From Bacteroidia bacterium (lineage in GTDB: Bacteria > Bacteroidota > Bacteroidia > Bacteroidales > Prolixibacteraceae), in the NCBI GenBank assembly GCA_026391655.1, contig JAPLDR010000134.1:1-40739 (forward strand): a stretch of DNA of 40,739 nucleotides, given 5' to 3'. Positions within the stretch are counted from its first letter, which is position 1, and every line of letters starts with the position of its first letter. Made by a program: the position numbers and the translations under genes. Below, piece by piece: positions 38,276 through 40,739 of the stretch. The notes beneath the pieces are model-generated. The model saw nothing but the letters and a program-made list of their open reading frames with translations, was not told where the DNA came from and searched no databases.

Positions 38276-38690
38276 TAGGCTCACTAACAGTTTGTATGGG
38301 CAATATGAATAATTAAGCTACCGGAGGTTTGTAAAAGGTTAAAGCCGCGAGTCTGAAGTAAAAAGATAATAATAAATGAAATCTATTCTTCTTGACTTCT
38401 TATTTCCAAATTGCCGAATTGTTTCATTTTCAAATATATTCATTGCTCAATCACCTCGTCTCACTCTCTCGCTTTCATCCCATTAACCATACATTTACAC
38501 TTCATTATAGCACTAATTAATCTTTTATTGACAGGCATGAATCAACATACGCGTTTCTGACTCGTTGATTAGAATAACAAAGTCAGTTTTAATCAGGAGA
38601 AAATGGACTATTCAGACATAAAAAGATAATATAGTAAAATATTTTTTTTTAATAAAACATCATATAATACTAATCATCAATGATATGATG
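38276..38690. other. Gene-free spacer before the RNA array
   Basis: No gene is seen. The stretch includes an AATTG-type simple repeat (about 38404-38422, also at 9818-9850) and an AT-rich end with a run of ten T near 38642. The conserved spacer block found between the RNA units is absent here, so the array starts near 38699. Confidence 0.5.
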
Positions 38691-38711
38691 TCAATAAAGT
38701 TATCAACAATT

Positions 38712-38741
38712 GTTAATAACTTAGGTTGATACATAGTTGAT
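38712..38741 (+). repeat. Phased GTTRAY repeats upstream of RNA copy 1
   Basis: GTTAAT at 38712, GTTGAT at 38725 and GTTGAT at 38736 are spaced 13 and 11 bases. A degenerate GTTATC at 38699 may be a fourth. One 11-base unit fewer than in the other copies is present. Confidence 0.6.
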
Positions 38742-38762
38742 ATAAATGGCTCTAAATATTTG

Positions 38763-39348
38763 CACGATGGTAGTAGACGGAGTATTTTTGAAATATCAGG
38801 TAAGCGATAAAAGGTTACTCTGAAGTAGTGGAAATGGAGAAAGACTCTTAGCTGAGTAAAGAACCGGATCATTCAGACCTTCGGGTTTGCACAACGGAAG
38901 AGTCAGAGGTTGGACGAAAAGAGTAATCTTACTCGTTCAGTCAACCCGAAAAAACGCCAGTCGTTCATTAGAAGGTTGAGTTAAAAAAAAAAAAAAAAAG
39001 GAGACGCAAGTCTCGTAGAATATTTTGGGGAGCAGGATAGCTGAAAAGTCTGAAATGTTCCATACAGCAGAAGTACTGATCGCAAGAGATGTTCCACACT
39101 GTAGTCTGTATAACACTCCGTCCGGGAAGGTCGACCGCAAGGAAAACCGAAGGGACAGCCGGAAGGTAATGCCGTAAAAGGCAGAACCCGAAAGCGGTGG
39201 GTTGAAAAATAAATCAATGGAATGCGCAAGCACGAAAAAGATGAAGGTACAGCCAGCCATGATAACCGTAGCCTGACACCACTGGTGAAGCAATTCATAA
39301 GTGATGAAATGGGAACAACTTGCAAGAGTCGTTCCCATTTGTGTTTTT
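38763..39348 (+). ncRNA. Large structured RNA, copy 1 (about 585 nt, family not recognised)
   Basis: No protein is encoded, but hairpins are dense. Examples are CAGACC-UUCG-GGUUUG (38874-38889), UUGGAC/GUUCAG (38910-38915 with 38935-38940), GAGAC-GCAA-GUCUC (39001-39014) and CC-GCAA-GG (39135-39142), closed outside by GUCC/GGAC. Others are GCC-6-GGC (39171-39182), AACCC-9-GGGUU (39185-39203), UGC-GCAA-GCA (39223-39232), GUGAA-GCAA-UUCAU (39285-39298) and a terminal hairpin. The GNRA and UUCG loops exist only on the + strand, which fixes the direction. Changes in copy 2 keep the pairs. The start just after ATATTTG is a guess; the end is the terminator. It has the style of large ornate RNAs such as ROOL or GOLLD, but I see no sequence match to either. 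Confidence 0.8.
39309..39348 (+). terminator. Terminator hairpin of RNA copy 1
   Basis: ATGGGAAC pairs with GTTCCCAT, with an inner ACT/AGT extension across one A/C mismatch and a six-base loop. TTGTGTTTTT follows. The same hairpin ends copy 2, where A/C has become A-U. Confidence 0.75.
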
Positions 39349-39646
39349 ATATCCCAGCCAAAAATCTGAAAATTTATCCGCCAACTGGCGGATGAAAATG
39401 TAACATTCTTCATCAGTTATACTTTCCCATAAATCCTTCCACTTTAAGATTTTTCTTCTCTCCATAGAAATTCAGATTAATCAACGCTTTTTCCTTCCAG
39501 ATTTCAGAAACAGTTTTACAGCATTTGTCCGGATTTATAAGTAAGAAATCAACAGTCTATACCCAGGGTACTTCACAGATGCAATCATTACATTATAAAA
39601 TTCTTAATATATCGCTATATATCAATTAAATAATCTTAATATAATT
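39349..39646. other. Spacer between RNA copies 1 and 2
   Basis: There is no gene. It holds an inverted repeat ATCCGCC/GGCGGAT near 39377-39393, absent from the next spacer. It also holds a conserved block at 39513-39575 (TTTTACAGCATTTGTCCGGA, then TTTATAAGTAAGAAATC and ACCCAGG) that recurs at 40412-40474. Confidence 0.6.
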
Positions 39647-39697
39647 GTTGACAATTGTTAATAATTCATGTTAATTCATAGTTGATTTAAGGTTGAT
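39647..39697 (+). repeat. Phased GTTRAY repeats upstream of RNA copy 2
   Basis: GTTGAC 39647, GTTAAT 39657, GTTAAT 39670, GTTGAT 39681 and GTTGAT 39692 are spaced 10, 13, 11 and 11 bases, so they lie on nearly the same face of the helix. Confidence 0.65.
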
Positions 39698-39718
39698 ATA
39701 ATTGGCTCAAAATATTTG

Positions 39719-40299
39719 CGCGATGGTAGCAGAGAGTGTATTTTTGAAATATCAGGTAAGCGATAAAAGGCTGCTCTGAAGTAGTGGATACGGGAAAGAC
39801 TCTTAGTTGAGTAAAGAACCGGATCATTCAAACCCTCGGGTTTGCGCAACTGAAGAGTCAGAGATTGAACTAAAAGAGTAATCTTAATCGTTCAAACAAC
39901 CCGAAAAACGCCAGTCGTTCATTAGAAGGTTGAGTTAAAGACCGGGAAAAAAGAGACGCAAGTTTCTTCAACTTTGCCGGGGAGCAGAGCAGCTGTAAAG
40001 TCTGTAATGTTCAAAGCAGCAGAGCTTCTGATCGCGAGAGATGAACTACGCTGTAGTCTGTATAACACTCCGTCCGGGAAGGTCGACCGAAAGGAAAACC
40101 GAAGGGACAGCTGGAGAATGAAGCTATAAAAAGCGGAATTCAAAAGCGATGGGTTGCAAAAAAAACAACGGAATGCGCAAGCACGACGAAAATGAAAATG
40201 CAACCAGCCATGATAACCGTAGCCTGACGCCACAAGTGAAGTAATTCACAAGCGACGAAATGGGAACAGCTTGAAAGAGTTGTTCCCATTTGTGCTTTT
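39719..40299 (+). ncRNA. Large structured RNA, copy 2 (about 580 nt)
   Basis: Copy 2 preserves the helices of copy 1 while the bases differ. CAAACC-CUCG-GGUUUG (39829-39844) and UUGAAC/GUUCAA (39865-39895) turn wobbles into Watson-Crick pairs. GAGAC-GCAA-GUUUC is at 39953-39966. CC-GAAA-GG replaces CC-GCAA-GG. GCU-6-AGC (40123-40134) replaces GCC-6-GGC, a double compensatory change. AAUUC-9-GGGUU (40137-40155) keeps pairing by wobble. GUGAA-GUAA-UUCAC is at 40236-40249. Long blocks such as GTCTGTATAACACTCCGTCC and GATAACCGTAGCCTGAC are identical between copies and may be tertiary or protein contacts. Confidence 0.8.
40260..40299 (+). terminator. Terminator hairpin of RNA copy 2
   Basis: TGGGAACAGCT pairs fully with AGTTGTTCCCA around a six-base loop. 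TTTGTGCTTTT follows. It is equivalent to the hairpin at 39309. Confidence 0.75.
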
Positions 40300-40544
40300 A
40301 AAACCCTGGCAGTAATTTGAAAATTCGAAATTATCCAATCGTTACCAAAAAAATCTCTTCCTCAGAAATTCAGATAAATCTATGCCCTTTCGCACTTGTT
40401 TTCAGAAAGGGTTTTACAGCATTTATACGGATTTATAAGTAAGAAATCACCAGGCTTTACCCAGGATACACCACTGAAAAAATCGTCACAAAAGGAAATA
40501 CTTTATATGGCACTATATATCAATCAAATAACCGCTTGTAAGTT
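40300..40544. other. Spacer between RNA copies 2 and 3
   Basis: There is no gene. The conserved block at 40412-40474 matches that of the previous spacer at the same distance from the flanking RNA copies; the rest is AT-rich and more divergent. Confidence 0.6.
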
Positions 40545-40595
40545 GTTGACAATTGTTGATAATTCAGGTTAATTCACTGTTGATTTAAGGTTGAT
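40545..40595 (+). repeat. Phased GTTRAY repeats upstream of RNA copy 3
   Basis: GTTGAC 40545, GTTGAT 40555, GTTAAT 40568, GTTGAT 40579 and GTTGAT 40590 show the same spacing of 10, 13, 11 and 11 bases as copy 2. Confidence 0.65.
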
Positions 40596-40616
40596 ATAAA
40601 TGACTCAAATTATTTG

Positions 40617-40739
40617 CACGAGTGTATTGGACCAGATATCTTTGAAATATCAGGTAAGCAAAAAAAGGTTACTCTGAAGTTGTGGAGACGGGGAGAGATT
40701 CTTAACTGAGTAAAGAACCGGATCATTCAAACCTTCGGG
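40617..40739 (+). ncRNA. Large structured RNA, copy 3 (5' part only)
   Basis: The first ~120 bases align with copies 1 and 2 up to ACCTTCGGG at the window end. The first hairpin is kept as AUUC-6-GAGU (40698-40711) against ACUC-6-GAGU in the others, a C-G to U-G change that preserves pairing. The rest lies outside the window. Confidence 0.7.

Follow-up and report, generated by a model that had tools for sequence, protein, structure and literature searches.

The window analyzed here, a stretch of 40,739 nucleotides (nt) from a Bacteroidia bacterium of the family Prolixibacteraceae (assembly GCA_026391655.1, contig JAPLDR010000134.1), ends in a tandem array of a large RNA gene. Each unit of this array is almost certainly a stand-alone structured RNA gene of about 550 nt, bearing a predicted promoter and a terminator of its own, a conclusion drawn from sequence comparison. 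We propose that it represents a class spread through the Bacteroidales, in which a closing core would stay constant while the interior varies by clade, and in which the replication initiator DnaA would directly switch expression at an ordered promoter array, and we hold the chances of this proposal, taken with all its parts, to be evenly balanced.

A repeat search of the window recovered three copies with start-to-start spacings of 956 and 898 bases, comprising two complete units at 38662-39369 and 39607-40320, about 82% identical to each other, and a third from 40505 that is incomplete at the contig end. The initial annotation, made from the sequence alone, had reported a tandem array with these two periods and two complete units, each copy ending in a terminator, and both statements are borne out: the two complete units carry terminator hairpins at 39308-39339 and 40259-40290, each with a T-tract. 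The end of another contig of the same genome (C72) holds a further copy (C72:37598-38248, minus strand) and the 3' part of one more (38484-38652), and because of these copies the array most likely runs on across the assembly break, where we infer that the end of the window's contig and that of C72 join. The copy at C72:37598-38248 (L033/L002) lacks about 50 nt of one domain and keeps both ends, the promoter region and the terminator. The features of the three units in the window are as follows.

38700-38743, + strand: box array upstream of unit 1, with boxes at 38700-38708 (TTATCAACA), 38711-38719 (TGTTAATAA), 38724-38732 (GGTTGATAC) and 38735-38743 (AGTTGATAT); read from the sequence, at a fixed distance conserved in homologues, and putatively bound by DnaA
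38759-38791, + strand: predicted promoter of unit 1 read from the sequence, of what we take to be the Bacteroidetes type, with TTTG at 38759-38762 and TATTTTTGA at 38783-38791
38795-39348, + strand: structured RNA of unit 1, placed by homology, covariation and a helix map, with a predicted start at A38795 and a predicted end in the T-tract past the terminator hairpin
38796-39276, + strand: conserved closing core of unit 1, 38796-38809 with 39263-39276 (11 pairs)
38817-38903, + strand: 5' domain of unit 1, from the consensus structure
38905-38909 / 39115-39119, + strand: long-range helix of unit 1, with one covarying pair
39308-39339, + strand: terminator hairpin of unit 1, from the consensus structure, with a T-tract after it
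39645-39699, + strand: box array upstream of unit 2 with one extra 11-bp box, read from the sequence (39645-39653, 39656-39664, 39669-39677, 39680-39688 and 39691-39699)
39715-39747, + strand: predicted promoter of unit 2, with TTTG at 39715-39718 and TATTTTTGA at 39739-39747
39751-40299, + strand: structured RNA of unit 2, both ends predicted
39752-40227, + strand: conserved closing core of unit 2, 39752-39765 with 40214-40227
40259-40290, + strand: terminator hairpin of unit 2, with a T-tract after it
40543-40597, + strand: box array upstream of unit 3, five boxes
40637-40645, + strand: -7 element of unit 3, TATCTTTGA
40649-40739, + strand: RNA of unit 3, 5' part up to the contig end

The case for an RNA gene rests on an alignment of homologues, for which 116 distinct full-length sequences were kept of 137; they are 422-749 nt long and share a mean pairwise identity of 58%. 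Covariation was assessed with our own version of R-scape, which uses the G-statistic with average product correction and a FastTree tree on which substitutions are redistributed while column rates are kept. Under this rate-aware phylogenetic null 36 of the 112 consensus pairs covary (E<0.05). When the partners were slid by 1-3 columns, 0-2 significant pairs were left; the consensus structure was built from the same alignment and is therefore favoured over its slid versions on percentage paired. Among all column pairs, 8 lie above the E=1 threshold of the rate-aware null (three of these also above the null maximum), every one of the 8 canonical in more than 70% of sequences, and 17 lie above the threshold of a uniform null. 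Likewise, canonical pairing in more than 80% of sequences was seen for 22 (88%) of the 25 pairs that covary most, as compared with 44% of the top 100 and 8.2% of 3000 random pairs, and in the 5' domain two-sided changes were found at 17 of 20 pairs (23 sequences). The resulting fold is a closed multibranched one, with paired ends, the 5' domain, the long-range helix, several hairpins and the terminator. In unit 1 a long run of A occupies 38983-38999, where unit 2 is mixed; this stretch is mostly unpaired in the consensus. The selection on RNA structure that the initial annotation had deduced from substitutions between copies is thus upheld by strong covariation, and most of the helices it had named recur in the consensus of the 116 homologues, namely those changing from GCC/GGC to GCU/AGC, from UUGGAC/GUUCAG to UUGAAC/GUUCAA and from CAGACC/GGUUUG to CAAACC/GGUUUG, together with the GAGAC hairpin (four pairs); AACCC/GGGUU does not, its bases pairing elsewhere.

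Covariation beyond phylogeny goes together with the lack of a coding signal. A protein gene was ruled out since the indels ignore reading frame (71 of 3017 gap runs, or 2.4%, are multiples of three among homologues 75-98% identical), despite somewhat longer frames than in shuffles, the longest stop-to-stop frames having a median of 98 versus 78.5 amino acids, with 85 of 116 on the minus strand. No match at gathering score was obtained in the window with the 4227 families of Rfam 15, and the five sub-threshold matches at E<=10, attributed to chance, include none to GOLLD, ROOL, OLE, HEARO or group II intron, models which are presumably part of the library searched. At 15 relative loci, seven sub-threshold matches with E up to 1 were seen, none credible and none to these same five. 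In both respects the initial annotation was right, as it saw neither a credible protein in the units nor a recognizable family; its likening of the RNA to ROOL and GOLLD, taken as membership, is not supported. Six motif strings were absent from the full texts searched on large Bacteroidales RNAs and DnaA boxes, a set outside which most subscription papers and preprints lie, and the RNA is apparently undescribed.

Being large and widespread, as housekeeping RNAs are, the element might be an unrecognized ordinary RNA, such as transfer-messenger RNA (tmRNA), RNase P RNA, a group II intron or a cis-regulatory leader, or else a coding or assembly artefact, and to this we give next to no credence. 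Both tmRNA and RNase P RNA were rejected at this locus, where no model matches, and true copies score above cut-off elsewhere in the window's genome (C43, 150.3 bits; C148, 243.3 bits). A leader or riboswitch was rejected on account of the terminator that the RNA itself carries and of the following gene, which varies by clade or is opposite in direction. Indels that do not come in threes speak against coding, and the presence of the RNA in many named assemblies against an artefact. A mobile element was also rejected: no plasmid or phage record similar to the RNA gene was found, and at the pattern hits in viral contigs (L159, L315, L316-L326) the remainder of the gene is missing. The window contains no tRNA.

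The conserved box array, which the initial annotation had not mentioned, is a more surprising part of the locus than the RNA itself. In most copies a nearly invariant dyad, TTATyAACA-AT-TGTTrATAA, and two or three GTKnAT boxes 11 base pairs (bp) apart precede the RNA at a fixed distance. Of the 116 upstream regions, 56 have the exact dyad (TTATnAACAATTGTTnATAA) and 88 have it within one mismatch, two regions being too short, and mononucleotide shuffles never yielded it within two mismatches. From 109 regions the consensus reads G-TTATyAACA-AT-TGTTrATAA-C-nnn-TGTTnATA-nnn-GGTknATA, with boxes TGTTrATAA / GTKnATA and gaps of 2, 4 and 2 bp; the array is followed by TA(A/T)(A/T)TTTG, which ends five bases short of an A (99%), itself two bases ahead of CAGG, and the -7 columns are conserved as well. 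These regions were drawn from 144 distinct segments bearing both RNA ends (up to three mismatches per end) and are distinct; each has the dyad at -96 to -101 with no more than three mismatches, and units carrying an extra 11-bp box are excluded, a selection which biases the dyad columns and leaves the direct-repeat and promoter columns unbiased. Unit 1 of the window carries four boxes as against five in each of the other two units, a difference of exactly 11 bp, and 15 bp separate the end of the array from the -33 element in units 1 and 2, a spacing that suits an activator, with repression being possible. The exact triple direct repeat is confined to the RNA copies (3 of 3) in the window's genome, where the dyad with at most one mismatch occurs at these copies and at one site between priA and parA-parB. 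An exact dyad (TTATCAACAATTGTTAATAAC) with no RNA downstream is present in the viral contig L315 (4248-4268), perhaps as a phage DnaA-like site, perhaps by chance.

The RNA gene is kept in most of the Prolixibacteraceae searched and in some other families, at a chromosomal place that differs by clade, and is sometimes found in tandem. Nucleotide search gave matches in 40 of 101 genomes, the window's own included, with two of the weakest, in G065 and G093, covering the promoter region alone. A pattern scan of named species genomes returned 111 stretches, 103 of which score at least 39 bits with a first model, R1, while the eight at 24.5 bits or less (Calothrix, Rhodobacteraceae and others) were counted as chance. 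The named matches belong to Draconibacterium, Mariniphaga, Maribellus, Sunxiuqinia, Prolixibacter, Mangrovibacterium, Gaoshiqia and Tangfeifania, in addition to many genus-less Bacteroidales assemblies and a few labelled otherwise, e.g. Chlorobiota and Sphingobacteriia. Both R1 and a second, more sensitive model, R2 (46 sequences), cover the 5' domain only. With R2, which was run on the family and the order, matches were obtained in 79 of 100 genomes of the window's family, or 68 of the 81 of good quality, with one match in 54 of the 79 positive genomes and two or three in the other 25, and in 36 of 393 genomes of the order, own included. The counts with R1, 9 of 247 genomes in the order and 1 of 395 over the phylum (the own genome alone), speak against a wide distribution. 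None of the four genomes of genus g12 (G028, G047, G058 and G703), two of them single-contig with 99% completeness, has an RNA match, which may reflect a loss or a diverged form.

Diverged forms of the RNA are suggested by weak matches outside the family. At 19 of these loci (L041-L043, L225-L240) the 3' end, AATAACAGTARYCTGRC, scored with up to three mismatches, lies on the same strand within 150-900 nt in 17 (missing at L041 and L236), and the dyad, with at most one mismatch, lies at -97 to -100 in 11, a good one being missing at L042, L225, L226, L229, L231 and L240; neither the 3' end nor the dyad is part of the search models. One contig of family f47 carries two tandem units 484 bp apart. 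Over all loci, the 144 segments with both ends range from 201 to 658 nt, and 119 have the dyad within two mismatches. Because the 3' end and the dyad recur in weak matches and the length of the segment varies, the class is defined more by its promoter region and two ends than by its middle, and the candidate diverged forms in other families are constant at both RNA ends and variable in the interior.

We regard the array as somewhat likely to be bound by DnaA, which would thereby control transcription of the RNA. The half-site of the dyad fits the DnaA box TTATNMACA, and the DnaA of the window's genome is an ordinary one (TIGR00362, 502.7 bits). For G046, a complete genome, the position of the GC-skew minimum was determined from 20 spread and 20 nearby samples, 40 stretches of 20 kilobases (kb) amounting to about 780 kb; the skew is negative from 0.79 to 2.37 megabases (Mb) and, apart from some local reversals, positive over most of the rest. 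The sole cluster of at least three TTATNMACA boxes within 400 bp in these stretches, at 2,396,618-2,396,840, lies about 5 kb from the cumulative skew minimum and contains TTATCCACA, TTATTCACA, TTATTAACA twice and the 13-mer TTATTAACAATTG, which is the left part of the dyad; at the sampled density, any given 223 bp would hold four boxes with a probability of about 3e-8. This cluster (in L261, G046:C1:2392001-2412000) is likely the chromosomal origin and is flanked by ruvB and, 4 kb away on the opposite side, by mnmG. The RNA itself is far from it, at 3.79 Mb versus about 2.39 Mb for the skew minimum, and is far from the minimum of the second complete genome, G054, as well, a distance that rules out the array as oriC in both.

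The same array could instead serve a dedicated regulator as its operator (an OmpR-family response regulator, for example), with the same structured RNA acting in the response of that regulator, an alternative that we find tenable and less probable than not. Sites of the OmpR/PhoB type also have the layout of GTKnAT direct repeats 11 bp apart, and a regulator with few targets would be expected to leave the triple repeat at the RNA copies only and the dyad there and at one other site, as seen in the window's genome. However, across families the conservation of the array far exceeds that of the RNA, which would require an equally conserved protein, no regulator gene stands beside the RNA in all clades, and the same 9-mers are clustered at the oriC candidate of G046.

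Several observations weigh against control by DnaA or against the wider proposal. A dedicated regulator would account for the array too; dyad-like sites with up to three mismatches number 25 in the window's genome versus 21 in a reversed control; and the classical strong DnaA box carries C, not A, at position six. The dnaA locus of the window's genome has no TTATNMACA box in the 3.2 kb examined, and a TGTTRATAA box is found upstream of parA in 11 of 16 genomes of the same genus but in 3 of 14 others. Near the skew minimum of G054 there are only two boxes, 91 bp apart, with no cluster of three in 34 stretches, and the region upstream of the homologue of the gene neighboring the G046 cluster looks coding and has no exact box, though an origin was expected there. 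The inverted pair with its 2-bp gap is absent from the samples of both G046 and G054. In addition, 21 of 100 genomes of the family gave no match, so that the RNA either is dispensable in the family or was missed in these genomes. Clustered TTATNAACA boxes at skew minima in most lineages would favour DnaA, and their absence would weaken its case. In the window's genus the intergenic region between priA and parAB (L167 3051-3254, L171-L187) often holds TGTTGATAA and TTATTAACA boxes and is possibly DnaA-controlled or origin-related. By the skew minimum of G054, L301 (near G054:C1:4400106) carries a GCTTCACGTGGAACG stretch that resembles what we take to be the parS consensus, close to a TTATTAACA box.

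If DnaA does bind, the loci might serve mainly as DnaA-titrating DNA sites, like datA of E. coli, with the transcript as a minor by-product and tandem copies adding boxes. The four or five boxes per unit, the several units in the array and the free chromosomal position would suit this, but the structure of the transcript is clearly selected and both the -7 element and the terminator are conserved, and we consider titration very improbable. With respect to known replication-linked elements, the putative DnaA array resembles oriC of E. coli, where DnaA sites form clusters of four with 2 bp between sites (PMC6070618), in having site clusters with 2-bp gaps, and differs from it in preceding an RNA promoter, starting with an inverted pair and lying away from the origin. 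CcnA, a cell-cycle noncoding RNA of Caulobacter, is encoded by a short gene inside the replication origin and is presumably activated by CtrA, according to PMC8959179; the present RNA would share with it the link to a master regulator of the replication cycle (here DnaA), whereas it is large, far from the skew minimum in G046 and preceded by DnaA-like boxes.

The genes around the RNA were compared at 95 loci of at least 4 kb, with the name of each neighbor family checked on one example. In one clade an enolase-type gene lies upstream (30 loci) and a UbiD-type gene downstream (32 loci, the largest neighbor cluster); an NtrC-type regulator is closely upstream in nine loci of the window's genus, and an alpha-L-fucosidase-type gene is closely upstream in 13 loci of Draconibacterium relatives. 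Since the neighbors differ by clade, the RNA is neither the leader of one gene nor tied to one partner gene, and no constant protein-partner gene stands beside it among these loci.

The RNA belongs among the large orphan RNAs of bacteria, apparently set apart by its constant core and variable interior and by its promoter array. Unlike OLE, which is found in Gram-positive bacteria and whose gene is adjoined by that of a constant partner protein, this Bacteroidales RNA has no Rfam match, a variable interior, an upstream array and no constant neighbor (32 of 95 loci at most), although the OLE partner itself was not searched for. Large size and an elaborate conserved structure are common to both, OLE being about 600 nt long with an intricate conserved secondary structure and a biochemical role that is left open in PMC9723947 and PMC12286853. 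The RNA is likewise large and elaborate as ROOL and GOLLD are, and it shares with GOLLD, one part of which is described as universally conserved and another as less so (PMC12286853), the division into constant and variable parts. In contrast to these two RNAs, which the same paper describes as encoded by phages or prophages, often near tRNA islands, it has neither a tRNA in the window, a similar phage or plasmid record nor a model match. Bacteroidales-1 and other candidates came from comparative searches for noncoding RNA in Bacteroidales by Weinberg et al. 2010 (PMC2864571); Bacteroidales-1 has an Rfam accession in a table of that paper, whereas the present RNA matches no Rfam family.

OLE, ROOL and GOLLD assemblies set a precedent (PMC12286853) for an RNA that self-assembles into a large cage or oligomer, and the size of the present RNA, its multibranched closed fold and the several copies in 25 of the 79 positive genomes of the family would agree with such a role. 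Nevertheless, there is no Rfam match to any of the three, a segment that varies from 201 to 658 nt between its ends is ill-suited to one fixed cage, and the lack of a tRNA in the window and of similar phage or plasmid records adds to this, and we judge a cage unlikely. It is, in any case, compatible with a DnaA-switched RNA, the explanation that we prefer. The high-dose or multimeric RNA suggested by the initial annotation would be a conjecture, the family counts being two or three matches in 25 positive genomes and a single one in 54.

We may hypothesize that DnaA occupies the array, probably as a short cooperative filament, and that the level of active DnaA would determine whether the RNA is made or held back, in step with the initiation of replication. 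The RNA would then act in trans as a ribonucleoprotein or scaffold, its constant core possibly binding a widespread protein and its clade-variable interior supplying peripheral domains. For this entire chain, from gating of transcription by DnaA to a structured RNA acting in trans, we see the arguments for and against as equal in weight. We know of no precedent for a replication-coupled large RNA. Few large bacterial RNAs of orphan function are known, and every one of them has led to new biology; the class reported here is open to direct study because it occurs in named strains of Draconibacterium, Sunxiuqinia and Prolixibacter. If the proposal is true, it would be, to our knowledge, the first large structured RNA wired to the initiation of replication, and its promoter array would help to show the form of the DnaA box in a phylum with little-studied origins.

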